A program made the translations under genes and the position numbers. Positions 1,491 to 47,020 of a DNA stretch of 64,000 nt are shown in pieces; within the stretch, counting starts at the first letter, position 1; each line of letters begins with the position of its first letter. This stretch comes from Fimbriimonas ginsengisoli Gsoil 348 (lineage in GTDB: Bacteria; Armatimonadota; Fimbriimonadia; Fimbriimonadales; Fimbriimonadaceae), in assembly GCF_000724625.1 (NCBI RefSeq), contig NZ_CP007139.1, positions 744,001 through 808,000 on the forward strand, read 5' to 3'. The notes under the pieces were generated by a model. It made no database searches, was not told where the DNA came from, and saw only the letters and a program-made list of their open reading frames with translations.

Positions 1491-3602
1491 CTATGTGAGA
1501 ACGTGGCTCGTTCGAGCCCGCATCATCTGAACAAAGGCAAGGGCCAGATCGGGGTCGAACTGGGTTCCCGCACCGCGTTCAATCTCTTCGAGCGCGACCT
1601 CCGGGGGCATACCTCGGCGATACGGTCGGTCGCTGGTCATCGCGTCGTACGTATCCGCAACCGCCAGGAAACGCGCGATACGCGGAATGTCGTAGCCGCC
1701 GATGCCGTCCGGGTAGCCGCCTCCATCGAAACGCTCGTGGTGATGCCGCACCCCGGGCAGCAACTCCGCGAGTTGGGGAATCTTGGCGACGATGAACTCT
1801 CCCAGAACGGCGTGAGCCTGCATCGTGCGCACCTCGTCCGGATCGAGCCGGCCAGGCTTCTGGAGGATGGCATCGGGCACGCCGATCTTTCCGACGTCGT
1901 GCAAGGTTCCGCAACGATGGATCAGGTCCACTTCGGTCGGATCCGCTCCCACATAGGCGGCGAGATCGGAGGCAAACCCCGCCACCCTGTCCGAATGGCC
2001 GTGAGTGTACGGGTCCTTCGCATCGACGGCGGCGGCGAGCGCTTTGACGGTGGCGTACGTACCGTCGTGGAGGTAGCGGTAAAGCTGTTTCGGGTCGTCT
2101 CCGCCCGCTCCTGGCACCTCGCCGAACTCGCAGAGCCGGTGACGGCCTAGCTGTTTTGCCCGCTCCAGGGCGAGTTGCGCCGCCACGATAAGCCCTTCGG
2201 TCTGCCCGCGCGCGGACACCAGCTCGGCGCAACCTCCGCTGAGGGTAACCCCCTTAACCGAACCGGCGATGAGCTTATAGAGCACTCCGGCGTCCTGCAC
2301 GGAATAGCCGGGCAGCAGGATCGCAAACTCTTCCCCGCCGTACCGGGCGACGGATGCAAACTCCGGCCGCGCCTCCCGCAAGACCGCCGCGATCTCTTTG
2401 AGCTTTCGATCCCCCTCGGCATGCCCTTTCTCCCGATTGTATTCGGAGAAGTTGTCGATGTCCAGGAGCAGCAGGGCGAGCGACTCGCCGGCGGCCGCGG
2501 TTCGGGCCGCTTCGGTCGGCAGAGACTCCTTGAAGTGGCGGTGGTTATCCAGCTCGGTCAACGGATCGACGTCCAGCATCGCCAGAAGCCGCTCCTGCGA
2601 TCGCCGCATCGACTCCGTCATGTCATTGAACGTCGCCTGCACCAGCCCGATCTCGTCGGTGCGGCGGACCTGGAACCGGTCGGGCCAGCCACCCGCCTGC
2701 AGCATCCGGGCGGCCCGAACCACGTCGTCCAGCCCCCGCCCGATGCGTTGACTAAAGAGCGTCCCACCCACGAGGGCCAAAAGGCAAACGACGCCGAGGG
2801 CGCTCAGAAACGCGAGGCTGAATTGCTTGGCCGGAGCCATCAGCTCCGCCGTCGACCTCAGTACGACAAACCCCTCATGGGCTCCCGCGTCGGTTCCGGG
2901 CAGCGGCCGGTACTGGGCCACGTATTCGTCCTTTCCAATCGTCAGGGGCCAAGGCTCCGTTAGGCTGCCGACGCGCAGGCCGGTCCCCGGCAGCGAGCCG
3001 CGGGTCATAACGCCATCTTTGGCGAACATCACCTTCAGCTCGGAAAGCTCGGAGATCTCTCGGGCGAGCTGCTCGCCAAATCGGAGGTAGGTCGTTACCG
3101 TCCCTTTAAAAAATCGATCGAAGAAGACCGGATAGGAAGCCTCGATCATCATATCGCCATCGCGAACGACCACTCCGCTCCAGGGGCGCTGGCTTTTGAT
3201 CACGTTCGAGATGCCGGTATCGGCGGAGGCACTGGTAGGTGTGGTGAACCCGTACTCGCCTACCACGCTGCCGTTCAGGTCGGTGATCACAAAGGCGTCC
3301 GTCCCGCCGAACTGACTGACGAGCCCCTTCTCGATCTGATCTTTGATCGTCTGGGCGTCGGTCATCGCAAGGTAGGTCACCTTCGGCGACGAGGCGATCT
3401 GGCTCGCTACGCTGCGGAAAACCCTCGTCCGGTTTTGGAGCGAACCGGACAGCACCGCCGCGCCTCGCGCGGTCTCCCGCCGGGCGGTTTCCGTGGCCTG
3501 GCGCGAGGTCAGGTAATTGAAGATGCCAAGCACCGACAAGCCGAATCCAAGACAAAGGATCGCCACGAATAAACGTATTCGGGTGGCAAGCGGATACTTC
3601 AT
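1491..3602 (-). CDS. Membrane sensor with HAMP, GGDEF and HD-GYP domains (c-di-GMP turnover)
   Basis: 703 aa. Order of domains: TM helix (about 9-31), an extracytoplasmic sensor region of about 225 residues, a second TM helix (about 261-283), HAMP linker (about 285-335), GGDEF (about 345-495, signature GGEEF at 422-426) and HD-GYP (about 510-700, HD at 568-569, HHE at 620-622, GYP at 629-631). The GGDEF signature and the metal-binding HD-GYP residues look intact, so the protein may both make and degrade c-di-GMP, or one half may be regulatory. It is the last gene of a three-gene operon; its ATG overlaps the upstream stop by 4 nt (ATGA), which implies translational coupling to the cupredoxin gene. 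Confidence 0.92.
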   Translation of the reverse strand: MKYPLATRIRLFVAILCLGFGLSVLGIFNYLTSRQATETARRETARGAAVLSGSLQNRTRVFRSVASQIASSPKVTYLAMTDAQTIKDQIEKGLVSQFGGTDAFVITDLNGSVVGEYGFTTPTSASADTGISNVIKSQRPWSGVVVRDGDMMIEASYPVFFDRFFKGTVTTYLRFGEQLAREISELSELKVMFAKDGVMTRGSLPGTGLRVGSLTEPWPLTIGKDEYVAQYRPLPGTDAGAHEGFVVLRSTAELMAPAKQFSLAFLSALGVVCLLALVGGTLFSQRIGRGLDDVVRAARMLQAGGWPDRFQVRRTDEIGLVQATFNDMTESMRRSQERLLAMLDVDPLTELDNHRHFKESLPTEAARTAAAGESLALLLLDIDNFSEYNREKGHAEGDRKLKEIAAVLREARPEFASVARYGGEEFAILLPGYSVQDAGVLYKLIAGSVKGVTLSGGCAELVSARGQTEGLIVAAQLALERAKQLGRHRLCEFGEVPGAGGDDPKQLYRYLHDGTYATVKALAAAVDAKDPYTHGHSDRVAGFASDLAAYVGADPTEVDLIHRCGTLHDVGKIGVPDAILQKPGRLDPDEVRTMQAHAVLGEFIVAKIPQLAELLPGVRHHHERFDGGGYPDGIGGYDIPRIARFLAVADTYDAMTSDRPYRRGMPPEVALEEIERGAGTQFDPDLALAFVQMMRARTSHVLT

Positions 3603-34324: not shown

Positions 34325-36208
34325 CTATGAAAGAAAATACCGGGGGTTGGCGACGATGACTCCGGGGCGGCGGGCCATGGCTACTTTGAGCTGCTGGGCG
34401 ACGTTCTCGGCGAGGAGGCGCTGGTACCACTTGGTGCTTACCGCTTCCGCCACGATCACGGTGATGAGCATGTTCGGATTCTTGGCGCGCAGGTCGTCGA
34501 CGAAGTCGGTGAGCGGCTGGATCAAGGATCGGTACGGGGCGGGCAGTACCTCCAGCGCAACATCCGGAGCGTAGATCGCCCACTGTCGCTGCACTTCGAA
34601 GATTCCTTTTTCGTTGATCGGCACGTGCACCGCGCGGATCTCCCCTTTCATTTGCCGCGCGTACTGCAGCGCCGACAAGACTCCCCGGTGGACTCTCGGC
34701 ACTAACAACAGCGCGATATGCCCCGTCACATCCGGCGGCGGCTCCGAGACGGCGAGCTGGCGGGTGATCGAGGCGTAGCGGCGGTTGATGGCGATAAAGG
34801 TGACGTAGATCATCGGAATCAGCACCACCACGATCCAAGCCCCCTCGAGGAACTTGGTGAAACCGATGATGACGGTCACCACGAAGCAGAGCGTCGCACC
34901 GATTCCGTTGATCACTGCACTCCGGAGCCAGCCCGGCCGCCTCTCCTTATGCCAGTGCACCACCATGCCCACCTGAGACAAGGTGAACGCCGTAAAGACC
35001 CCGACCGCGTAAAGCGGCAGCAAGCTGTCGAGCTGACCGTTGAACACCACCACCAGGGCCGCCGCCGCGATAGCCAGGACGACGATGCCGTTGTGGAAGA
35101 CGAGCTTGTCCCCCAGTCTTGCGAGGTACCGCGGAAGGTAACCGTCACGGGCAATGAGGCTCGCCAGCCGCGGAAAGTCCGCAAAGGCGGTATTCGCGGC
35201 GAGAATCAGGATGAGCGCCACGAAGATCAGGAGCGTGTAGAACCCGACGCTGTTTTGGCCGAAGGCAAAGGCCGCCACCTGGGCCGTCAGGGTGAGGTAC
35301 TTGGGGCTGTTGCTCTCGTGGATCGAGAAGTGAGCGTAATGTTCCGGGAGGTGGAGGGCGACGTAACCGAGCCCGAGGAACAGGAACGCGAGGAGGCACG
35401 ACATGATCGTGAGAGTCTTCGCGGCATTCTTGCTCTCCGGCGCCTTGAACGCCTGGACGCCATTGCTCACCGCCTCGATACCGGTAAGGGCGGCGCATCC
35501 AGCCGAGAAGGCACGGAGGACGATGAACCACCGCATCGCATTCGCTTCTTTACCGATGAGGTCGCTCTCGACATGAAACGGGATCACGGGTGTGTGACCG
35601 AGTGCCCACGCGCCGGCCACGATCACAGCCGCCATCGCGAGCACGAACCCGTAGGTGGGGATCGCAAACAGCGTTCCCGACTCCTTCAACCCGCGCAGGT
35701 TGGCGAAGGCGACGATCGCGATGCACAGGATCGATAGCGTTACCGTGGCGTCCGGTACGTGCTGCCGGATGGTCGGGAACGCCGACAAAATCGCCGCCAC
35801 CCCGGCGGCGACCGAGACGGCAACCGTCAGGATGTAGTCGATCAGCAACGCCGCCGCCGCGACGAGGCCCGGGCCGGCGCCAAGGTTTTCGGAAGCGACG
35901 ATGTACGAACCGCCCCCGCTAGGATAGGCGTGGATCGTCTGCCGGTACGACATGCTGACGAACGCGATCAGCGCCACGATCGCCAACGAGATCCAGATCT
36001 GCAGATGCAGCGCGGACGTCGATAGGTAGATCAGGATCAGCATGATCGCCTCGGTGGCGTACGCCACTGAGCTGAGCGCATCGGAGCTGAAGACCGGCAG
36101 GCCCAGGAACGGCGATAGCCGCTCGTGATGGGCTCGAGAATTTGGAATCGGCGCCCCGAGGAGGGCGCGGCGCAAGCGCTGTCGAACTGACGGGCGAGGT
36201 TCGCTCAT
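34325..36208 (-). CDS. kimA: KimA-like potassium/amino-acid-polyamine-family permease
   Basis: 627 aa with about 12 TM helices and a C-terminal cytosolic universal-stress-like domain (about 500-620). Signature GLPVFSSDALSSVAYATEAIMLILI matches the KimA (formerly YdaO) group of APC transporters, as does the length (Bacillus KimA is 607 aa). KimA is a high-affinity, proton-coupled K+ importer. Next to kdpFABC and with a shared operator upstream, a K+ role here is likely. The gene lies downstream of kdpC on the same strand, but its own motif at 36299-36316 suggests a separate promoter. Other APC substrates cannot be fully excluded. Confidence 0.82.
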   Translation of the reverse strand: MSEPRPSVRQRLRRALLGAPIPNSRAHHERLSPFLGLPVFSSDALSSVAYATEAIMLILIYLSTSALHLQIWISLAIVALIAFVSMSYRQTIHAYPSGGGSYIVASENLGAGPGLVAAAALLIDYILTVAVSVAAGVAAILSAFPTIRQHVPDATVTLSILCIAIVAFANLRGLKESGTLFAIPTYGFVLAMAAVIVAGAWALGHTPVIPFHVESDLIGKEANAMRWFIVLRAFSAGCAALTGIEAVSNGVQAFKAPESKNAAKTLTIMSCLLAFLFLGLGYVALHLPEHYAHFSIHESNSPKYLTLTAQVAAFAFGQNSVGFYTLLIFVALILILAANTAFADFPRLASLIARDGYLPRYLARLGDKLVFHNGIVVLAIAAAALVVVFNGQLDSLLPLYAVGVFTAFTLSQVGMVVHWHKERRPGWLRSAVINGIGATLCFVVTVIIGFTKFLEGAWIVVVLIPMIYVTFIAINRRYASITRQLAVSEPPPDVTGHIALLLVPRVHRGVLSALQYARQMKGEIRAVHVPINEKGIFEVQRQWAIYAPDVALEVLPAPYRSLIQPLTDFVDDLRAKNPNMLITVIVAEAVSTKWYQRLLAENVAQQLKVAMARRPGVIVANPRYFLS

Positions 36209-36298
36209 AACATGCGCGGCATCGACACTTACGGAACGTCGTCGGTCCGCCGTTCGAGCGCGCTATAGAAAGGATGAATGCTCCCGATTGGCGTTAGC

Positions 36299-36316
36299 GT
36301 AAGGATTTCATAAGGA
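36299..36316 (-). promoter_or_regulatory. Proposed KdpE operator, copy A (kimA)
   Basis: Plus-strand GTAAGGA-N4-ATAAGGA, a direct repeat with 11-bp period (one DNA turn). It overlaps the kdpC stop and lies about 90 nt before the kimA start. Identical half-sites and spacing occur at 42078-42095. Direct repeats one turn apart are how OmpR/PhoB-type regulators such as KdpE usually bind. Confidence 0.65.
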
Positions 36317-36937
36317 TTGCTTCCCATCCAGCGCCAGGTTTAGCTTGAGCACGTTCACCGCCGGTTCGCCAAAAAAGCCGAGGAAGCGCGAATCCGTGTT
36401 CTCGTCGACCAGGCGGCGGACCTCTTCCACTTGCATCTTTCTCGATTTCGCCACTCGGGCCGCCTGGAGGTAGGCGTTCGCGGGGCTGATGTGGGGGTCG
36501 AGGCCGCTGGCGCTCCGGGTTGCCGCGTCGGCCGGGATCTCGGCATCTACCGGAAGTCCGTTCTCTTCCCGATACGCCTTCGCCAGATCCTTGATCCCGT
36601 CGAAATTTCCGGGGTCGTCCTTACCGTCCGCCGTCTTTTTGTGGATGCCGTTCACGAGCTTGTCGCTCGTCGGTCCCAGGTTGGTTCCGGACGAGTTGTT
36701 GGCATCGTAGCCGCTACCGGCCGCCGAGGGGCGGGGGTGGAAATATTCCGGCTTCGTGAAGTTCTGGCCGATTAACGTTGAGCCGACGACTTGGCCGTTC
36801 CGGACGATCAGGCTGCCGTCCGCCTTGTCCCTGAGCCCCGGAACTTGGCCGATCCCGTACATCAAGAGCGGGAACCCAAGGCCCGTGAAAACCACGAACA
36901 AGAAGGTCAATACGATTACGGGTCGAAGATGATTCAT
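36308..36937 (-). CDS. kdpC: Potassium-transporting ATPase subunit C
   Basis: 209 aa from the ATG at 36937. One N-terminal TM helix (VIVLTFLFVVFTGLGFPLLMYGIGQ), then the KdpC ectodomain: GSLIVRNGQVVGSTLIGQNFTKPEYFHPRPSAAG, PADAATRSASGLDPHISPANAYLQAARVA and the terminal block LGFFGEPAVNVLKLNLAL. KdpC stabilises the KdpFABC complex and raises K+ affinity. It starts 13 nt after the kdpB stop, so both are on one transcript. Confidence 0.95.
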   Translation of the reverse strand: MNHLRPVIVLTFLFVVFTGLGFPLLMYGIGQVPGLRDKADGSLIVRNGQVVGSTLIGQNFTKPEYFHPRPSAAGSGYDANNSSGTNLGPTSDKLVNGIHKKTADGKDDPGNFDGIKDLAKAYREENGLPVDAEIPADAATRSASGLDPHISPANAYLQAARVAKSRKMQVEEVRRLVDENTDSRFLGFFGEPAVNVLKLNLALDGKQSL

Positions 36938-36950
36938 CTGAGTTGGTGCC

Positions 36951-39059
36951 TTAGGCAAGGTGGAGGGCCACAAGGATCCGGTCGATGATCCAGATTCCAG
37001 GGAACGGGACGACGATTCCGCCCAAGCCGTAAATCAGTAGGTTGCGGCGAAGAATTTGCGCGGCATTCGCGGGGGTGTACTTCACGCCTCGCAGAGCGAG
37101 CGGGATCAGCGCGACGATGATCAGGGCATTGAAAATCACCGCCGCCAGGATCGCGCTCTGTGGGTTCGAGAGGCCGATGATGTTGAGCGCCTTCAACTGA
37201 GGGTAAGTCACGATGAACATCGCGGGAATGATCGCGAAGTACTTCGCCACATCGTTCGCGATCGAGAACGTGGTGAGCGATCCTCGAGTCATCAGGAGCT
37301 GCTTGCCGATCTCCACGACCTCGATCAGCTTTGTCGGGTTGGAGTCGAGATCGACCATGTTTCCCGCCTCTTTGGCCGCCTGCGTGCCGGTGTTCATCGC
37401 CACTCCGACGTCGGCCTGGGCGAGCGCGGGAGCATCGTTGGTCCCGTCCCCGGTCATCGCTACGAGGCGCCCGCCCGCTTGTTCCTGCCGGATGTACGCG
37501 AGCTTCTGCTCGGGGGTCGCTTCGGCGAGGAAATCGTCAACCCCGGCTTCCGCAGCGATGGAGGCGGCCGTGAGAGGGTTGTCCCCCGTGATCATCACCG
37601 TCTTGATCCCCATCGATCGAAGCTGATCGAACCGCTGCTTCATCCCACCCTTAACGATGTCCTTGAGCTGAACCACACCGAGAATGCGAGCGCCGTCGGC
37701 CACCACGAGCGGGGTTCCGCCTCCCTTGGCAACCTCGTCCACTTTCGCCTGCACCGCATCCGGCATCGAACCGCCCGTCTCGATGGCGAACCTCTTCACG
37801 GATTCGGCTGCCCCTTTTCGTACCTCGCGCCCGCCCACGTTCACGCCCGACATTCGGGTCTGGGCGGTGAACGGAACGAACTCCATCCCTTCGGCGTGCC
37901 GCTCGCGGATGTTGTGCCGCTCCTTGGCCAGAACGACGATGGAGCGCCCCTCCGGAGTTTCGTCGGCCAGCGACGAGAGTTGGGCCGCATCCGCAAGCTC
38001 GGCGTCCGTCACTCCTGGCGCGGGGAAGAAGGCGGTCGCCTGCCGGTTGCCGATGGTGATGGTGCCAGTCTTATCGAGCAAGAGCGTGTTGACGTCTCCC
38101 GCCGCCTCGACCGCCTTGCCGCTCATCGCAAGCACGTTGTGTTGCATCACCCGGTCCATGCCGGCGATGCCGATCGCGCTCAACAATCCGCCGATCGTGG
38201 TCGGGATTAGGCACACGAGGAGGGCGACCATGACGGTAATCGTGGGTACCGATCCTTGGCCCGCCTGGTCAACCGAGAAGTGCGCGAAAGGTAGAAGAGT
38301 GACGGTGGCGAAGAGGAAGACGATGGTCAGGCCCGCCAAGAGGATCGACAGGGCGATCTCGTTCGGCGTCTTCTGGCGCTGGGCCCCTTCCACGAGAGCG
38401 ATCATCCGGTCGAGGAACGACTCGCCAGGGTTGGCGGTGACCCGGACGACGATTCGATCGGAAAGTACGCGCGTGCCGCCAGTTACGGCGCTTCGATCTC
38501 CGCCCGATTCCCGAATGACCGGCGCCGACTCTCCAGTAATTGCAGATTCGTCGACCGAAGCGATCCCCTCCACGATCTCGCCGTCGGCCGGAATTTGGTC
38601 GTTCGTTTCGCAGACAAACAGGTCGCCGCGCCTCAGATTGGGCGCCGGGACCAGCTCTTCGCGACTTCCACTCAGCTTGCGCGCCATCGTGTTGGTACGG
38701 GCTTTTCGGAGCGAGTCGGCCTGCGCCTTCCCCCGCCCTTCCGCCATTGCCTCGGCAAAGTTGGCGAACAGCACCGTGAACCAGAGCCAAACCGAGATCT
38801 GCCCCGAAAACCCCGCGTTCCCGGTGTGGGTGACGAGGTCCCGGATAAAGAAGTAAGTCGTAACGACGCTGCCGACCTCGACGACAAACATCACCGGGTT
38901 CTTCGCAACCAGCCGCGGATCGAGCTTGAAGAACGATTCTTTCACCGCTCGGCGCAGGATGGTTGGGTCAAAGAGGCTGCGCGGCCCGTTCTTAGGCCGA
39001 TTAGTTTCCGGACTTGGAGCCGGCGAGGAGCCGGCTTGGGGGGTTAGAAGAGTAGCCAT
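36951..39059 (-). CDS. kdpB: Potassium-transporting P-type ATPase subunit B
   Basis: 702 aa. P-type ATPase: actuator motif TGES at 175-178 (the serine that is phosphorylated in E. coli KdpB to switch the pump off is the Ser here), phosphorylation motif DKTGT at 329-333 with catalytic Asp329, and hinge [13 protein letters not shown]-terminus is long and Pro/Ser-rich (about 30 residues before DPTILRRAV). It hydrolyses ATP to drive K+ uptake. Unusually, its start is separated from kdpA by about 695 bp. Confidence 0.97.
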
Positions 39060-39754
39060 TTATTAGCTCCAATCGGGCGGAAGGGATTCACCTGCCCCAG
39101 ACGTGAAATCGCCGTGTGGGCTCGCAAGGCCCTTCGATCGGTTAAGCCGCCTCCTTCCGACCTCGGAGAGGTCGCAGAAATTTGACCCGCGTCAGCAGAC
39201 CCGGGGTAAGGAGCCGCCACCTTAACCCGACCTCCGAGGCGCTTGCCCTTACCCACGTCTTGGATCAAGGCACGAACCTCCATCCTGCGCCTGGTACCTG
39301 TCACGTCATGACGAACTTTGCCGCTCCAGACACCTGGGTCCAAAGTGCTTGGCCCTAGTGGCCACCTGCCGGATTCGGGAACAGAGGTTTCGCTCAGTGG
39401 AACCCTCTCCCTCGCACCTGAGGGGGAGGGCAGGGTGGGGGAGCGCTCAACACGTCCCAGTCCTTTGAATAAACACCTTGTATTCAACGGACTTGTGGCA
39501 GGAATCGTCCACCCCCTCCCCTGCCCTCCCCCGCCTTGGCGGGGGAGGGTTCTCGCTGGCCAAACCCTTATCCCATCTTGCGGAAGGTTGCCGATCTAGA
39601 TCCTGCCGAACCGGACACGAGGACCGAAGATGTGGATAAGGACAAGCTCGAAGGTGGTCGCAAAATGCTGGCGAAAAGTCTCCCGTGTATCCGGTCGACG
39701 AAAAGTCACCAATGTTGAACGTCCGAGATCCATAATGGACGCTTAAGTAATATT
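39060..39754 (-). other. 695-bp spacer between kdpA and kdpB with palindromic elements
   Basis: No gene with coding character. It holds a composite inverted repeat at about 39400-39555: GC-rich arms (CCCTCTCCCTCGCACCTGAGGGGGAGGG and the mirror GGGGGAGGGCAGGG/CCCTGCCCTCCCCC) around a TTGAATA-N10-TATTCAA core at 39463-39486. Close to kdpB, on the coding strand, GGTGAATC, CTTCCGCCCGA and AGCTAA occur in order (39063-39092); these resemble blocks of the c-di-AMP (ydaO) riboswitch but lack the rest of its structure. A single ATAAGGA half-site is at 39636-39642. Confidence 0.7.
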
Positions 39755-41650
39755 TCACTGAGTCTTCATCTCCTTCATCTGGAAGTGCTCAACGATCGGC
39801 CCCAGGGAGAGCGCCGGGAAGTAGCTGAGAACGTTGACGATCACGACCACACCCACGAGCAGGGCTACAAAGGTTCCTCCATCGGTGGGGAAGGTTCCGG
39901 CCGACATCGGCACCGTCTTCTTCCGCGCCATGCTTCCCGCAATAGCCAACAGCGGAACGATCATCAAGAATCGGCCGACGAGCAAGGCGATGCCGATCGT
40001 CGTGTTGTAGTGCGGCGTGTTCGCCGTGATTCCCGCGAACGCCGAGCCGTTGTTGCCGGTCGCGGAAGCGTAGGTGTAGAGAATCTCGCTGAAGCCGTGT
40101 GAACCGGAGTTGTTCAAGTTGTTCCGGGTCGATCCATAGTAGGTGTCGGTTGCGTTGCCGTAGGCCGTTGCCGGCCAAGCGTTCCAGTTAGCGACGGCCG
40201 GCAGCTTCGCTAGATCCGCCGGCTTCTTGGGGTCGACGGACACGGAGACGTACCGGTCTTTGGCCGCAGGATCGGTGGTCGTCGCATAGTTCGAGTTGGC
40301 GCTGATCGCCGTCCAAAGAAGGAGGTTTCCGGCGAGGACGAGGGTGGCGAGCATGGCCATTTGCACTTCGAACTTGCCGATCTTCTTTCCGAGATACTCG
40401 GGGGTTCTTCCCACCATGAGACCGGCGATGAACACCGCGATGACAGCGAACATCAACATTCCGTAGAGCCCCGCGCCGACGCCGCCGAAAATGACCTCGC
40501 CGGACATCATGTTGAAGATCGGCACCATCCCACCCAACGGGGTGTAGGAGTCGTGCATCGAATTCACGGCGCCGCAGCTCGCGTCGGTGGTGACGGTAGC
40601 GAAGAGCGCGGAAGCGCTGATGCCATAGCGGACCTCCTTTCCTTCCATGTTCCCACCCGGCTGAGTGGCAGTGGCACCGGTCTGGATATGAGCGGCTCGC
40701 AGGTGGTCGGTCCCCCCTTGCTCGGCCGAAATGCAGGCGAACGCGCCCGCCAGGAACAGCACGGACATTGCGCCGAACACCGCCCACCCCTGCTTGACAT
40801 TCCCTACCATGCGGCCGAAGGTGTACGTCAGAGCGGCCGGGATGCAAAAGATCAGTAGGATTTGAAGCAGGTTTGACGCGTTACTCGGATTCTCGAAAGG
40901 ATGGGCGGAGTTAGCGTTGAAGAAGCCTCCTCCGTTCGTACCCAGCATCTTGATGACCTCTTGCGAGGCGACGGGGCCCATCGCGATCGTCTGCGCCGTC
41001 CCTTCTACGGTCTTAATGGCCATCGGCGCTGCAAAGTTTTGCGGCGTGCCGAGTCCGATCATCACCACCCCGGCGACTACGCAGATCGGCAAGAGCACGT
41101 ACAAGGTCGCTCGGACCGTGTCAGCCCAGAAATTGCCAATTCCGTTGGCGCTTTTCCGAGCAAAGCCGCGAACGAGCGCAATCGCGATCGCCATTCCCAC
41201 CGCCGCCGAGGCCCAGTTATGGATGGCGAGCGCCACCATGTTCGACCAATAGTTGACGGTGACTTCCGGGCTGTAAGATTGCCAGTTGGTGTTCGTACCG
41301 AAACTGTTCGCCGTATTGAATGCCAGGTGCGGCGGCATCTGAGCGCCATCGAATTTCTGCGGATTGAGGATCGCCGGGGCGAACCCCTGCAAGCGAAGCG
41401 CCGCATAGGTGAAGAGGATAGAGACCGCGCTGAACAGCAGCATGGCGACTGCGTAGGTCGTCCACTTCATGTCGTCTTCCGGACGGACGCCGAGCAGGCG
41501 ATACCAATGCCTTTCGAGTGGCCCGAAGATGGACGACAAGAATGTCCGCTCGCCATCGAAAACCTTCTGCATGTAAATGCCGAGCGGCTTCGTGACGAGG
41601 ACGATCATCGCAAAGAAAACAAGAACCTGCAGCGTGCCCAAAATGGTCAT
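39755..41650 (-). CDS. kdpA: Potassium-transporting ATPase subunit A
   Basis: 631 aa; E. coli KdpA is 557. The K+-channel-like subunit with selectivity loops HLAFNTANSFGTNTNWQSY and LGTNGGGFFNANSAHPFENP (238-255), plus the late GFSEILYTYASATGNNGSAFAGI loop. The extra length is explained mainly by an insert of about 60 residues at 452-512, rich in Ala/Asn/Tyr, in an external loop just before that last filter loop. Position and sequence are intact otherwise, so function is likely retained. The start follows the kdpF stop by 1 nt, so kdpF-kdpA are coupled. Confidence 0.96.
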   Translation of the reverse strand: MTILGTLQVLVFFAMIVLVTKPLGIYMQKVFDGERTFLSSIFGPLERHWYRLLGVRPEDDMKWTTYAVAMLLFSAVSILFTYAALRLQGFAPAILNPQKFDGAQMPPHLAFNTANSFGTNTNWQSYSPEVTVNYWSNMVALAIHNWASAAVGMAIAIALVRGFARKSANGIGNFWADTVRATLYVLLPICVVAGVVMIGLGTPQNFAAPMAIKTVEGTAQTIAMGPVASQEVIKMLGTNGGGFFNANSAHPFENPSNASNLLQILLIFCIPAALTYTFGRMVGNVKQGWAVFGAMSVLFLAGAFACISAEQGGTDHLRAAHIQTGATATQPGGNMEGKEVRYGISASALFATVTTDASCGAVNSMHDSYTPLGGMVPIFNMMSGEVIFGGVGAGLYGMLMFAVIAVFIAGLMVGRTPEYLGKKIGKFEVQMAMLATLVLAGNLLLWTAISANSNYATTTDPAAKDRYVSVSVDPKKPADLAKLPAVANWNAWPATAYGNATDTYYGSTRNNLNNSGSHGFSEILYTYASATGNNGSAFAGITANTPHYNTTIGIALLVGRFLMIVPLLAIAGSMARKKTVPMSAGTFPTDGGTFVALLVGVVVIVNVLSYFPALSLGPIVEHFQMKEMKTQ

Positions 41651-41651
41651 T

Positions 41652-41738
41652 TCAGAACTTCTCCGGCTTCAATAGGGCGTAGAGCAGGTAGATGAGGAGC
41701 AGCAGAGATACCGCCCCCGTCCAGACGTAGTCACTCAT
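41652..41738 (-). CDS. kdpF: Potassium-transporting ATPase subunit F
   Basis: 28 aa: one TM helix and a short positively charged end (YVWTGAVSLLLLIYLLYALLKPEKF). Size, position directly before kdpA and the LLKPE(K/R)F end identify KdpF, the small lipid-like subunit that stabilises the Kdp complex. It lies below usual gene-length cut-offs. Its start overlaps the end of the tiny ORF upstream. Confidence 0.93.
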   Translation of the reverse strand: MSDYVWTGAVSLLLLIYLLYALLKPEKF

Positions 41739-41835
41739 CTTTGTTGGCCCCTAATAGGCGGTCGCATCCGCGTACGTACGCGACGGAGATGGCGAAAAAG
41801 GCGATCGTAATTCCGAGGTAAAGAAGGTCGAGCAT
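41731..41835 (-). CDS. Tiny membrane protein upstream of kdpF (34 aa)
   Basis: 34 aa from the ATG at 41835: MLDLLYLGITIAFF then AISVAYVRGCDRLLG and a charged end (ANKDE). One TM helix followed by the GCDRL motif. Its stop overlaps the kdpF start by 8 nt (ATGAGTGA), so it is translated in series with kdpF. From memory, short frames of the style '...FFA-x-(A/S)-x-AYVRGCDRL' sit before kdpF in various bacteria; I am not aware of an assigned function. It may be an assembly or regulatory peptide. Confidence 0.82.
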   Translation of the reverse strand: MLDLLYLGITIAFFAISVAYVRGCDRLLGANKDE

Positions 41836-41839
41836 GGAT

Positions 41840-42016
41840 TTATTCCCTCGCTAATGGCTCAACTCGGCGGTCATGCCGCCAAGTGGGATCGTCGCAGCTA
41901 AATATCCAACCGCGAAAGCTTCTCCGGCTCGTGCCCGGTAGCCGGCATCCGATTAGCCAAAGAACGAAGTAGCCAACCCCCGCCGCCGCGAACGCCAAGA
42001 AAGTGGTGTCCAACAT
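41840..42016 (-). CDS. Second small membrane ORF, first of the kdp structural operon (58 aa)
   Basis: 58 aa from the ATG at 42016, which has GAGGT six bases upstream. One TM helix (MLDTTFLAFAAAGVGYFVL, then WLIGCRL), followed by a polar, Arg-rich tail. It starts with MLD and has a GC(D)RL-like element after its TM helix as does the 34-aa peptide downstream, hinting at a diverged duplicate. The next start is 4 nt after its stop. It has not been checked against any database. Confidence 0.62.
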   Translation of the reverse strand: MLDTTFLAFAAAGVGYFVLWLIGCRLPGTSRRSFRGWIFSCDDPTWRHDRRVEPLARE

Positions 42017-42077
42017 CACTAACCTCGATGGTGCGATTTGGAGGAATCAAGGAGGCGTTAGGGGAATGGGGATGGGC

Positions 42078-42095
42078 GTAAGGATTAAATAAGGA
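42078..42095 (-). promoter_or_regulatory. Proposed KdpE operator, copy B (kdpFABC operon)
   Basis: Plus-strand GTAAGGA-N4-ATAAGGA, identical in both half-sites and spacing to copy A. It lies 62 nt before the first small ORF of the operon, next to the hairpin cluster. Read on the coding strand it is TCCTTAT-N4-TCCTTACGC. Confidence 0.72.
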
Positions 42096-42098
42096 AGC

Positions 42099-42203
42099 CG
42101 TGGCACGGGCTTCCAGCCCGTGTGTATCACGAGCATCCTGCTCGTGTAATTCCGCCAAGGGCAGGATGCCCTTGGGACCCACGGGCTGGAAGCCCGTGCC
42201 ACG
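42099..42203. repeat. Cluster of four stem-N5-stem hairpins between kdpE and the kdp structural genes
   Basis: CACGGGC-N5-GCCCGTG (42104-42122), CACGAGC-N5-GCTCGTG (42128-42146), CCAAGGGC-N5-GCCCTTGG (42155-42175) and CACGGGC-N5-GCCCGTG (42180-42198). The first and last are also reverse complements of each other. As the end of the kdpDE transcript it should form a strong structure and may separate it from the structural operon. Confidence 0.83.
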
Positions 42204-42206
42204 TTT

Positions 42207-42899
42207 CTACTCGTCGATCCTTAATCGGTAGCCGACGCCGGGTTCGTTGGTGATCAGTTTGGGGCGGGCGGGGGACGCTTCGAGTTTATGGCGGAGCTGG
42301 CCGGTGTAGACGCGGAGGTATTGCGATTCTTCGGCGTAGGCCGGACCCCAGACTTCGGTGAGGAGCTGGCGGTGGGTCACCACTCGGCCGGGATTCCGAG
42401 CGAGAGTAGCGAGAAGCTTGAACTCGATCGGAGTGAGATGGATCTCCTCGCTCCCTCGGAAAACCTGCCGGGCGGCGAGGTCGATGCGGACACCGTGGGC
42501 TTCGATCACCGGCTCCGGAGCGGCGCTCTTCCCCGTGTGGCGCAACGCCACGCGGATTCGGGCGAGGAGCTCGGGGACCCCGAAAGGCTTGGTAAGGTAG
42601 TCGTCCGCGCCCGCGTCGAGGGCGGCCACTTTATCCCGCTCCTGGCCACGGGCGGAGAGGACGATGATGGGAAGCTCGCTCCACTGGCGCACCTCGCGGG
42701 TGACGTCGAGGCCATCCATATCCGGCAACCCGAGGTCCAGAAGGACGACCTCCGGGTTTTCCGTGGCGATGGCGCGAATGCCGTTTCGCCCGTCGGCAGC
42801 CTCGGTAAGCGTGTATTCGCCGGGATCGAGGCTCGCCCGCAAAAATCGCCGAATCGCGGCTTCGTCGTCGATTACCAAGACACGGCGTGGCTCAGCCAA
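42207..42899 (-). CDS. kdpE: KdpE response regulator (OmpR family)
   Basis: 230 aa. Receiver domain with acidic pocket (LVIDDEAAIRRFL), phosphoacceptor Asp55 in VVLLDLGLPDMDG and Lys in YLTKPFGVPELLARIR, then a winged-helix DNA-binding domain (IHLTPIEFKLLATLARNPGRVVTHRQLLTEVWG, YIRVYTGQLRHKLE-type recognition helix). It activates kdp transcription when K+ is low. Its first codons overlap the kdpD end by 8 nt, so translation is coupled. Three candidate binding sites are described at 36299, 42078 and 45599. Confidence 0.96.
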   Translation of the reverse strand: MAEPRRVLVIDDEAAIRRFLRASLDPGEYTLTEAADGRNGIRAIATENPEVVLLDLGLPDMDGLDVTREVRQWSELPIIVLSARGQERDKVAALDAGADDYLTKPFGVPELLARIRVALRHTGKSAAPEPVIEAHGVRIDLAARQVFRGSEEIHLTPIEFKLLATLARNPGRVVTHRQLLTEVWGPAYAEESQYLRVYTGQLRHKLEASPARPKLITNEPGVGYRLRIDE

Positions 42900-45561
42900 C
42901 CGGAACCTCCGGCGCCCGGTCCGGCTTGGGAAGCTCGATCACGAACGTGGACCCTCCCCCCGTGCGATTCTTGGCCCAGATGCGGCCCCCGTGCAACCGG
43001 ACGATGGCGCGGCAAATCGCCAGGCCAAGTCCGAAACGCCCCCCGTCGCCGTCCCGTTTGGGGCGCTGGAACCGCTCAAAGATCGTTGCCTCGGATCCGA
43101 CGGGTATCCCCGGTCCTCGATCGGATACTTCGACATACACCGTCTCATCACCCGCCCATGCCGAGACTTCGATCGGCGAGTTGCCCTGGGCGTGGACGGC
43201 GGCGTTTTCGAAGAGGTTGGCGAAGACTTTCTCCATCAGAGCGCCGTCCAGCTCTAGTAGCGGGAGGTCGCTCGGAATGTGGATTTCCACTGGACGGTCG
43301 CTGAGAACGACGCGGGTCCGGTCCAAGGCCGCGGCAATAAGCTCCTCCAGGGACTGCCATTCAACGTTGGGACGGATCTCCCCCGAGTTGAGACGCGTCA
43401 TGTCGAGCAGATTCTGAACCTGCAAGTTCAGCCGCATCGACTCCTCATAGATGGTTTCCGCCAACTCCTGCTCGGCCCCTCCCCGCTCCCGCATGGCGCT
43501 GGCCGCCCCCGCAATCGCGGTCAGCGGCGTCCGTAGATCGTGCGAGATCGAGCTCAGCAAGGCGTTCCGCATCTTTTCCGACTCGGCTTGCAGCCGCGCC
43601 TCGTGCGACTCTTTGGCGAGCAGAGTCCTCTCCAGGGCTACCGCCAAGCCGGTCGCGAACGTCTCGAGCAGGGTTCGCTGGGCCAGTGTCAGAGCCTCCG
43701 ATTTAGATCTCGGAGAGAGTGCCAGCGCCCCCACCGAGCCCCGGGAGGCGCGAAGCGGTAGGTACATCGCCGCCGACCCCGGCAGGGTGTCGGTCCCGGC
43801 GCCCGCCGGTTTTCCGTGTTCGAACGCCCACTGGGCGACCGCCATTTCCGAGTCGTCCGCTTCAAAGCTGGTCACGGACGGAACCACCACCGTCAGCATC
43901 GAACGGGCATCCGGTAGCAGCACGGCAACATCCGTATCGAACTCGTCGCCGATTCGGCGCGCCGCCGCTTCCGCGATCTCCTGCTTGGTCCGACTCGCGG
44001 CCATGTCGCGGCTCACTTCGTAAAGGGCGGAAGTACGCCTTTCCCTCGACGCCGCGTCGGCCGCTTGGCGGCGAAACCGGCTGTTGAGGCCGCTCAGGAT
44101 TACCGACACCGCGAACATGACCACGAACGTGGGAAGAAACTCTACGTCGCTTACCGCGAACGTGTAGCGCGGGCTCACAAAGAAGAAGTCGAACGCGGCG
44201 ACGCTCAAAATAGCGGACAGCAGCGAAGGACCCCGGCCGACCCGGGTCGAAACCAGCCCCACCGCGAGCAGATACAGCATGATCAGGTTCGACAGGTGCA
44301 CCCAGGGGCTCAAAAGGAAGCAGAGTGCGGTGGTCGCCGCCACCGCCAGCACGCTGGCGGCATACTCCTCCGGCCTGGCGTCCGCCACCTGAATCGGCGT
44401 CGGCCTTTCGCTCGGTGTCTCCGATTCTCCCGTGATCACATGGACGTCGATGTCCCCGCTCCGGCGCACCAGGTCGTCGACCACCGAACCGCGAACAAGC
44501 TCATGCCACCGAGAACGGATCGGCTTGCCAACGATGATCAAGCCGGCTCCGCGTTGACGCGCGACCGTTAGGATCTCGGCGACGATGTCGTGGCCGCTGC
44601 GACTCAGCGTTTCCATCCCCAAGGCCTCGGCGAGGCGCATCGCTCGCTCTGCCCGATCCCGATCTTCGTCGGAGCGATTGGTCTGACGATCGCTGATCAC
44701 CGAGATAGCTAGGACTTGAGCGTGCATCGCCGTGCCATACCTCGCGGCGGCCCGGATCACCCGCTCACCCAGCCGGTTCGGGGCGACGCAGACGAGGATA
44801 CGCTGGCGGGATCCCATCGACCCGGGGGAAGCATCCGCCCGGCGGAAGGATTGAATTTCGGCGTCCACCCGGTCCGCCGCCCTTCGTAGCGCAAGCTCCC
44901 GGAGCGCCAGCAAGTTTCCCCGGCAGAAGAACCCCTCCAGGGCCCGCTCGGTTTGGGCGGGCACGTACACCTTCCCTTCTTGCACCCGCTGTCTTAGCTC
45001 GTCCGGGGGAATATCGACCAGCTCGATTTCGTCCGCGGCATCGATAAACGTGTCGGGAACGGTTTCCTGGACGAACACTCCGGTCATGCTCGCCACGACG
45101 TCGCGAAGGCTCTCCACGTGCTGAATGTTGATCGCAGTGTGCACGTCGATCCCAGCCGCTAACAACTCCTCCACGTCTTGATAACGCTTAAGGTGGCGCG
45201 ATCCCGGAGCATTGGTATGGGGCAGCTCGTCCACGACCAGCAAGCGCGGTCGCCGCCGAAGCGCCTCGTCGATATCGAATTCCTTGAGAAGAATGCCGCG
45301 GTGCTCGACTTCCCGAAGTGGCAACGATGGAAGCCCCACGAGGAGCGCCTCGGTCTCTTTCCGACCGTGCGTTTCCGCATAGCCGACGACGAGATCGATC
45401 CCTCGCGCGATCTGCTCGTGCGCCTCGCTGAGCATCGCGTACGTCTTGCCGACACCGGCGGACATGCCCAAAAAGATCTTGAGCCGCCCCCTCGTGCGCT
45501 CGGTCATTTCTCGCTGAGCGATGCGCAACAAAACATCGGGATCCGGTCGCTCACGGCGCAT
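42892..45561 (-). CDS. kdpD: KdpD sensor histidine kinase
   Basis: 889 aa. N-terminal KdpD domain with Walker A GMSAGVGKT at 32-40 and VVDELPHTNAPGSRH; Usp domain about 250-380; four TM helices in DUF4118 about 400-495; GAF-like region about 510-650; HisKA with H674 in SISHDLRTPLTAIAG; HATPase_c with N-box and G-boxes (LSDRGPGIPVGSE, FGLGLAICRAIV). The full standard architecture. It senses K+ and turgor and phosphorylates KdpE. It is the first gene of the regulator pair, with a copy of the proposed operator 38-55 nt upstream, i.e. possible autoregulation. Confidence 0.96.
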   Translation of the reverse strand: MRRERPDPDVLLRIAQREMTERTRGRLKIFLGMSAGVGKTYAMLSEAHEQIARGIDLVVGYAETHGRKETEALLVGLPSLPLREVEHRGILLKEFDIDEALRRRPRLLVVDELPHTNAPGSRHLKRYQDVEELLAAGIDVHTAINIQHVESLRDVVASMTGVFVQETVPDTFIDAADEIELVDIPPDELRQRVQEGKVYVPAQTERALEGFFCRGNLLALRELALRRAADRVDAEIQSFRRADASPGSMGSRQRILVCVAPNRLGERVIRAAARYGTAMHAQVLAISVISDRQTNRSDEDRDRAERAMRLAEALGMETLSRSGHDIVAEILTVARQRGAGLIIVGKPIRSRWHELVRGSVVDDLVRRSGDIDVHVITGESETPSERPTPIQVADARPEEYAASVLAVAATTALCFLLSPWVHLSNLIMLYLLAVGLVSTRVGRGPSLLSAILSVAAFDFFFVSPRYTFAVSDVEFLPTFVVMFAVSVILSGLNSRFRRQAADAASRERRTSALYEVSRDMAASRTKQEIAEAAARRIGDEFDTDVAVLLPDARSMLTVVVPSVTSFEADDSEMAVAQWAFEHGKPAGAGTDTLPGSAAMYLPLRASRGSVGALALSPRSKSEALTLAQRTLLETFATGLAVALERTLLAKESHEARLQAESEKMRNALLSSISHDLRTPLTAIAGAASAMRERGGAEQELAETIYEESMRLNLQVQNLLDMTRLNSGEIRPNVEWQSLEELIAAALDRTRVVLSDRPVEIHIPSDLPLLELDGALMEKVFANLFENAAVHAQGNSPIEVSAWAGDETVYVEVSDRGPGIPVGSEATIFERFQRPKRDGDGGRFGLGLAICRAIVRLHGGRIWAKNRTGGGSTFVIELPKPDRAPEVPVG

Positions 45562-45598
45562 CCGCAGTCAGAGTGGCACATTCGTGGCTGAGAAGCGC

Positions 45599-45616
45599 AT
45601 AAGGAAAATATAAAGG
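45599..45616 (-). promoter_or_regulatory. Proposed KdpE operator, copy C (kdpDE)
   Basis: Plus-strand ATAAGGA-N4-ATAAAGG, 11-bp period, i.e. one base pattern short of copies A and B. It lies 38-55 nt before the kdpD start. Confidence 0.55.
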
Positions 45617-45619
45617 TCC

Positions 45620-45705
45620 GCTCCCTCTTCGCGCCTTTGCGTGATCAGGCCCGTCTCCCCTTCTCTCCCCTTCCTCTTTGCGTCTTCGCGCTTTTGCGTG
45701 ACCCA
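45620..45705. repeat. TTTGCG-type dispersed repeat, copies 2 and 3
   Basis: Two related blocks, 45627-45646 and 45673-45703, with the wording CTTCGCGCCTTTGCGTGA. They match the repeat at 6191-6220. They are between kdpD and a glycoside hydrolase gene. Confidence 0.65.
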
Positions 45706-45736
45706 CGCATCTCCCCCCTCCCTCCATGCGCCGCCA

Positions 45737-47020
45737 CTAAGGCTGGATCCACAGGTACACGGGCGACTCGCCGATGCTCACGGTTACCGATCCGTCCTTG
45801 GCAACCGTGAACGGGACTGACTCCGCCGGCGACTGAGAGAGCGGCATCCTTTCGGCACGGACCACCTTTCCCAGTTTGGGAAGAGTCACCGTCGCTTGTC
45901 TCTCCGCACCGGTCGGGGACCAGACGGCGACGATACGGTCGTTCGCATTCTTATCTGACCGGAATTCGTAGGCATACGCCTGCCCCTCCCGCTGAAATAG
46001 GGGTCGCGAGAACCGGTAGTCGCCCAGCGCCTTTTGAAGGTGGGCAATCGCGTAGAACGACGGTTTCGGCTTAAAGCCGCGAGTGAGGCCGGACGAGCCG
46101 TGGAGTTGGGGCACGTCGTCGTCGTTGAACCAGAAGATGTACGCCCGATCGACGTCCATCGCCGCGAACACGAGGAAGGAGCGGACGAGGTACTGGGCCT
46201 GCTGCGTGTCGGTCGAGCCGACCCATTTGCTGAAGTCGCCAGTCGAGGGCGCCGGCTTGGTCGAGGCGTCCCAACCGAACTCGGTGACCCAAACTTTCTT
46301 CCCCGGGGCATTCGCATTGCGCCAGTCGATCACTTCCTGCACCTGCTTCAGGTACCGGATGGAAGGATCTTCCGGGTAGCTGCGCCGCCATGTCGGCCAC
46401 TGCTCTTTGAACGCGTAGGAGTGGACGTTCAGCACGTCGCATAGGTCGTTCAGGCCCCTTAGGTTCTCGTAATCCTTGGAGTACCGGTCCTCCTTACCTT
46501 TCGCGACCGCGCACGAGGCGATCAGCATCTTGGGATCACCAGCCCGCAAGCCGCGAGCCATGCTCTCGAACATCGTGCGGTATTGAGCGTCGGTGTACTT
46601 CTCCGGCTCGTTTCCGATCTCCGCGCTGCTGACTAAGGGATGAGAGCTCGACGGTCCGAAGGCGCGGGCGAATGCCCGCCCGTACTCGAACGCATCCCGC
46701 TTCACGTCCTTCCACTTCTCCGGTGCGATCGACTCGAACTGCAAAGACGCATCGATCCCATATCCAGCCGCGATCCACTTGCCGTACAACTCATTCCAGT
46801 TCACACCGTTTCTAGTCGACGGAAAGGTTGTCCCCTGCGAAGTGTCCGGCCCGAGATCCCATTCCACCGGATGGTAGTCCCTAAGCCGCTTCGTCACCGG
46901 CGCATAAAGCTCCGGCCGCATTTGGACGGTATGCGTATTCAGCCCGATGAAGTCGCTAATCAGCGGCTTCAATTTCGGCCCGCGGCAGGCAGCAAGCCAC
47001 AAGGAGAGCAAGAGCACCAT
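45737..47020 (-). CDS. Lipoprotein glycoside hydrolase (clan GH-A type)
   Basis: 427 aa. Lipobox LAAC at the end of a short signal. (beta/alpha)8 hydrolase features: acid/base Glu in SAEIGNEPEKY and the second Glu (nucleophile) in KKVWVTEFGWDAS, about 120 residues apart, with LNVHSYAFKEQ between. The C-terminal about 80 residues are a beta domain (AVWSPTGAERQATVTLPKLG). Clan GH-A retaining enzymes cleave beta-linked sugars; the exact family (for example GH39-like) and substrate cannot be told by eye. It stands alone. Confidence 0.82.
   Translation of the reverse strand: MVLLLSLWLAACRGPKLKPLISDFIGLNTHTVQMRPELYAPVTKRLRDYHPVEWDLGPDTSQGTTFPSTRNGVNWNELYGKWIAAGYGIDASLQFESIAPEKWKDVKRDAFEYGRAFARAFGPSSSHPLVSSAEIGNEPEKYTDAQYRTMFESMARGLRAGDPKMLIASCAVAKGKEDRYSKDYENLRGLNDLCDVLNVHSYAFKEQWPTWRRSYPEDPSIRYLKQVQEVIDWRNANAPGKKVWVTEFGWDASTKPAPSTGDFSKWVGSTDTQQAQYLVRSFLVFAAMDVDRAYIFWFNDDDVPQLHGSSGLTRGFKPKPSFYAIAHLQKALGDYRFSRPLFQREGQAYAYEFRSDKNANDRIVAVWSPTGAERQATVTLPKLGKVVRAERMPLSQSPAESVPFTVAKDGSVTVSIGESPVYLWIQP

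Follow-up and report, generated by a model that had tools for sequence, protein, structure and literature searches.

Does the operon for the Kdp potassium pump begin with kdpF, or is it headed by further genes for very small membrane proteins? The locus considered here raises this question because two short open reading frames lie directly upstream of kdpF in the 64,000-nucleotide stretch of the Fimbriimonas ginsengisoli Gsoil 348 genome that was analysed (the window).

Layout of the kdp locus

The genes of the locus all lie on the minus strand, in the order kdpD, kdpE, an intergenic region with a REP-like repeat pair, a 58-codon frame, a 34-codon frame, kdpF, kdpA, kdpB and kdpC. The four pump genes were assigned by profile matches: kdpF (41652-41738; 28 aa) matches PF09604 at E=6.4e-10 and TIGR02115 with 39.4 bits, above the cut-off, and kdpA (39755-41650; 631 aa), kdpB (36951-39059) and kdpC (36308-36973) match TIGR00680, TIGR01497 and TIGR00681 with 674.9, 1052 and 202.5 bits, respectively. 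The response regulator (42207-42899) is of the KdpE type, with PF00072 and PF00486 domains, and the 889-aa sensor kinase (42892-45561) is recognized as KdpD-type by its own sequence and its place before kdpE. The Pfam model matches the window KdpA as two pieces (2-431 and 425-548), leaving a stretch of about 45 residues unmatched by the model, and the gap between kdpA and kdpB (39060-39754, about 695 nt) contains repeat-like short frames and no convincing gene.

The 34-codon frame (41731-41835, minus strand), which we provisionally call kdpZ-like, overlaps kdpF by 8 nt and has a putative ribosome binding site, GAGGG (41845-41849, minus strand), 9 nt 5' of its ATG. It does not lie immediately before kdpA; kdpF holds that place and the 34-codon frame is one gene further upstream. 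The 58-codon frame (41840-42016, minus strand) stops 4 nt 5' of the 34-codon start. Its own ATG is preceded by GAGGT (42026-42022), and an in-frame GTG at 42019 would give a 59-aa product. The initial annotation had described the positions, spacings and sequence features of both frames correctly, including that both peptides start with MLD and have one hydrophobic stretch followed by GCRL or GCDRL.

A conserved gene next to kdpF and kdpA

The 34-codon frame is a real gene, as judged by its codon use, by purifying selection and by membership of a protein family. Its codon use is coding-like, with a score of +13.6 compared to +17.9 for kdpF. Across 41 disjoint pairs of homologues, pN/pS (an uncorrected proportion, as are all of the selection and divergence figures given here) was 0.26 in frame, whereas the two shifted frames gave 1.32 and 1.54. 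In a second set of 23 pairs, pN/pS was 0.30 for the small gene, compared to 0.16 (kdpF) and 0.18 (kdpA). The small gene and kdpF diverge equally at synonymous sites (0.24 and 0.22, respectively), and nothing therefore points to additional constraint on the small gene at the RNA level.

Within the phylum, 57 of 251 genomes gave a tblastn match to the 34-aa peptide at E<=1, the best match in another genome being at 5.9e-10. At E<=0.05 there were 42 such genomes and kdpA was present in 41 of them (Fisher p=3.5e-26); the one genome without kdpA (G025) contained no such peptide by profile. When 64 kdpF-kdpA loci were read individually, the small gene was found directly before kdpF in 61, the three loci without it being in G232, G195 and G029, while four second copies of kdpA (in G052, G093, G159 and G027) had neither kdpF nor the small gene. 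Members from the genus Fimbriimonas are 31-34 aa long and overlap kdpF by 4-8 nt; outside the genus the form is mostly 26-27 aa, ending at C[DE][RK]L, and most other bacteria have a short gap to kdpF in place of the overlap.

The family can be described as single-helix peptides of 26-34 aa with the pattern M-x-D...FFA...Y.RxC[DE][RK]L. The window peptide, MLDLLYLGITIAFFAISVAYVRGCDRLLGANKDE, falls in this size range, has one predicted helix, an M-x-D start and the C-[DE]-[RK]-L motif, and is encoded next to kdpF-kdpA. To look beyond the phylum, GTDB genomes were scanned with a degenerate DNA pattern joining the C-terminus of the peptide to that of KdpF, which matched at least 118 stretches. Among the matches listed, KdpA followed just downstream in 112 of the 117 stretches with a readable peptide; of the remaining five, four run into a fragment edge and the fifth matched by chance. 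The sources among these listed matches include Bradyrhizobium, Rhizobium, Methylobacterium, Azospirillum, Nevskia, Myxococcus, Acidobacteriota and others, as well as metagenome-assembled genomes labelled Limisphaerales and Melainabacteria.

Named plasmid records were surveyed with the family profile, for which null scores had a 99th percentile of 8.2 and a maximum of 17.7. Scores were 34.1 for Sinorhizobium meliloti 1021, 30.3 for Sphingomonas, 39.4 for Komagataeibacter, 46.7 for Methylocystis, 20.6 for Paracoccus, 43.3 for Mycetohabitans, 36.3 for Burkholderia stagnalis, 38.0 for Deinococcus radiodurans, 21.2 for Streptomyces, 30.3 for Nonomuraea, 31.2 for Arthrobacter, 25.2 for Subdoligranulum and 29.7 for Bacillus badius; Listeria innocua (14.3) and Rhodococcus (11.6) are weaker candidates. 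The small gene lies next to kdpF in Alpha-, Beta- and Gammaproteobacteria, Myxococcota, Acidobacteriota, Deinococcus, Actinomycetota and Bacillota. It was missing from the Enterobacterales examined (E. coli K-12, Klebsiella and Providencia) and, in the records surveyed, from Tsukamurella, Lactiplantibacillus, Enterococcus and Halobacterium, and in Niallia a small frame at the same place scored 2.5 and was not recognized by the profile.

Gene order varies in a few of these records. In B. stagnalis (L230) the small gene follows kdpF and precedes kdpA, so that the usual order of kdpF and small gene is inverted, and in D. radiodurans MP1 (L214) the order is kdpB - small gene - kdpF - kdpA - kdpC, with both the small gene and kdpF missing from the gene table. 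A plasmid of Caballeronia sp. SBC2 (L204) carries two copies of the small gene, at 3001-3105 and at about 5328: one precedes kdpF, and an extra one, some 2.3 kb upstream of kdpF, neighbors a gene for a KUP/HAK potassium transporter.

The family has largely escaped annotation. The 34-aa peptide matched no Pfam or NCBIfam model, and we found no description of the family in a literature search that mainly covered papers outside subscription. The peptide occurs in 179 plasmid records; among the 40 listed, 39 have no annotated feature at its position and one has a hypothetical protein, although the PLSDB gene tables are incomplete and the gap is therefore somewhat over-stated by these counts. In Caballeronia one copy is annotated and the copy before kdpF is not. 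A 34-aa Caballeronia protein, WP_206366234.1, is named 'potassium ABC transporter ATPase' in RefSeq and belongs to the family with a profile score of 48.4; the name is misleading, as this is a single-helix peptide and no ABC ATPase. This easily fixed gap consists in the lack of a family model and in at least one wrongly named copy.

Proposed role of the 34-residue protein

A single-sequence structure model of the window peptide predicts one helix spanning residues 2-31 with a mean pLDDT of 89.8. In 170 aligned family sequences, conservation is strongest at D3 (166 sequences), F14 (142), F13 (136) and Y20 (131). C24, D/E25, R/K26 and L27 are also among the most conserved, but their conservation is over-stated in the pattern-found sequences because the search pattern prescribes the Cys codon and what comes after it; these positions are strong as well in the phylum set, which was found without the pattern. 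The motif Cys is not universal in the family, and the tail beyond C[DE][RK]L varies from 0 to 8 aa. Lysine and arginine are more numerous after the helix in 161 of the 170 peptides and before it in one, which by the positive-inside rule suggests that the N-terminus is outside and the C-terminus cytoplasmic; this is probably also the topology of the window peptide.

The closest functional comparison is with KdpF (PF09604/TIGR02115), the stabilizing peptide of the Kdp ATPase, which likewise is a single helix of about 30 aa encoded in the same operon. This is a comparison of how the two might work: there is no profile similarity in either direction, the two co-occur as separate genes, and the C-terminal motif of the small family is C[DE][RK]L compared to KPEKF in KdpF. 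Searches with PF09604 and TIGR02115 gave no match to the 34-aa peptide at E<=1. CydX and AcrZ, one-helix partners of large membrane complexes, resemble it by analogy only.

We favor the possibility, with fair confidence, that the product of the 34-codon frame is a true membrane protein of the Kdp system, with one helix, that serves as an extra subunit or as an assembly or stability factor, the 58-codon frame being a separate matter. According to this model the small gene would be translated together with kdpF, the helix would pack against the membrane-embedded part of the pump, and the peptide would then act much as KdpF does. Our reasoning is that a gene that is conserved beside the pump in many phyla, usually unannotated and absent from E. 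coli probably encodes a small pump partner that has been overlooked; furthermore, the lack of the small gene next to kdpA copies without kdpF points to the pump's membrane part. The initial annotation had suggested that both small frames are translated with KdpF and may help to assemble or regulate the pump. For the 34-codon gene, conservation 5' of kdpF across phyla together with selection on the protein makes co-expression with kdpF and a role at the pump a natural expectation; for the 58-codon frame the suggestion finds no support, as its codons are non-coding-like and it is not significantly similar to the frame at the same place in the nearest relative. The two likewise part ways in protein-level conservation among relatives with kdp, which the first has and the second lacks. 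Counted against a pump partner are that: (i) the E. coli Kdp system works without the small gene; (ii) the Kdp systems of Klebsiella, Providencia, several Bacillota and archaea also do without it; (iii) it is less constrained than kdpF (pN/pS 0.30 versus 0.16) and (iv) a profile search of PDB chains with the family found no match to the peptide.

Most work on KdpFABC, a textbook ion pump, has been done in E. coli, which has no such small gene. If the favored model is correct, the reference Kdp complex is incomplete for many bacteria, and the small gene is a concrete target for structural and genetic work. A bolder form of the idea is that in most bacteria the Kdp ATPase contains a fifth subunit of 26-34 aa that is missing from the E. 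coli system behind the known structures and biochemistry, and that some '5' UTRs' of kdpF may in fact be its gene; we hold this tentatively, as falling somewhat short of even odds. A structured 5' UTR of about 100 nt has been reported before kdpF in Caulobacter (PMC8552747), and one of 120 bp in M. smegmatis (PMC5401905); both are long enough that they could hold the small gene, which is offered as a suggestion only.

There is probably a precedent for the small gene in Clostridium acetobutylicum. Two small hydrophobic open reading frames, orfZ and orfY, reportedly lie before kdpA in this organism, and orfZ is said to encode a small hydrophobic peptide without known relatives; we take orfZ to be the likely first sighting of the family. 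The likeness consists in an extra small gene heading a kdp operon, and homology is a lead only; family members do occur at an orfZ-like position in Clostridia (Subdoligranulum) and in B. badius. A 2017 paper gives the transcript as kdpZYABCXDE (PMC5401905, citing Treuner-Lange et al. 1997).

Alternative readings and the 58-codon frame

The 34-aa peptide might instead regulate the KdpD sensor kinase, as a feedback or sensing partner, and be no subunit of the pump. Single-helix peptides commonly regulate kinases, and KdpF of Mycobacterium bovis BCG interacts with KdpD in a two-hybrid assay (PMC3618439), indicating that small kdp peptides can touch the kinase. The small gene, however, keeps its position with kdpF-kdpA even where kdpDE is not directly upstream, and it is missing where kdpA occurs without kdpF. 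We consider regulation of KdpD unlikely.

It is quite unlikely, in our estimation, that both small frames are functional, with the 58-codon frame encoding a fast-evolving, lineage-specific membrane peptide. Such a peptide would fit with the frame's good ribosome site and with its placement: a frame of this length ended within 12 nt of the 34-codon start in 4.7% of Markov resamples (p=0.047), which makes the position only mildly unusual, and one occurred anywhere in the 371-nt region in 46%. It would fit also with the presence of a hydrophobic frame at the same place in five of six close congeneric loci, the first 24 residues being common to L011, L012, L018 and, weakly, L006. On the other hand, the codon score of -6.9 is low for same-length coding stretches of the window (mean 17.9, sd 10.3; P=0.016) but in line with that of open non-coding frames (P=0.38). 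The window frame has no significant similarity to the frame of any congener; compared to the frame at the same place in the nearest relative, which has a hydrophobic start, p was not below 0.05. In two relatives there is no stop before the 34-codon gene and in a third there is no such frame. The 58-codon frame was rejected as a gene on its codon use and lack of conservation, and is probably not one. The position 5' of the 34-codon gene may hold a fast-changing peptide in the genus, with the window frame itself unsupported.

The shared 24 residues of the four congeneric frames resemble the first helix of KdpA (LQ...KP..F), with p<=0.001 against helix-preserving shuffles for three of the four, and these frames are possibly truncated copies of the start of kdpA. 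The window 58-aa sequence has no resemblance to this helix (p=0.76), nor did it match a KdpF model at E<=1.

The initial annotation had also raised the possibility that the 58-codon frame is a diverged duplicate of the 34-codon one. We rejected this, as it comes down to a single weak pairwise match (BLASTP E = 0.001; p = 0.015 against helix-preserving shuffles) that was not confirmed by the family profile (p = 0.31) and has no counterpart in five congeneric loci, where the upstream frame compared to the 34-aa homologue gave p = 0.53-0.84. In two other families of the phylum (L188 and L179), an extra small hydrophobic frame before the 34-aa homologue does resemble that homologue (Smith-Waterman p=0.0006 and 0.015, respectively), and the small gene may have been duplicated in those lineages.

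The 34-codon frame could also be a translated leader that controls kdpF-kdpA through coupling or nascent-chain arrest, its peptide having no later role. In favor of a leader, it precedes kdpF with an overlap or short gap, and its most conserved residues include C-terminal ones. Yet D3, the FF pair and Y20 are conserved away from the C-terminus, and synonymous sites are under no constraint beyond that of kdpF. In addition, the variable tail after the motif, the kdpF-first order in B. stagnalis and the detached second copy in Caballeronia speak against a leader-only role, which we judge decidedly unlikely. That the frame arose by chance or is a diverged kdpF copy is scarcely credible, since conservation is far beyond chance and, despite a similar size and the same predicted orientation as KdpF, it matches no KdpF model and a KdpF duplicate is ruled out by the family profile, which scores a mean of 5.9 on KdpF versus 48.9 on members.

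A promoter scan of 41600-42300 found none, and a search of 36000-46000 against Rfam gave no match. An RNA element was considered and rejected, there being no Rfam match and the strong predicted fold (z -6.5) being due largely to a REP-like inverted pair (GGCACGGGCTTCCAGCCCGTG) between kdpE and the small frames (42102-42200; arms at 42102-42122 and 42180-42200). The pair was recognized by its repeat count: the 21-mer has 101 copies in the genome with up to 2 mismatches, compared to 0 for a reversed control, and two copies often face each other at a distance of about 80 or 130 nt.
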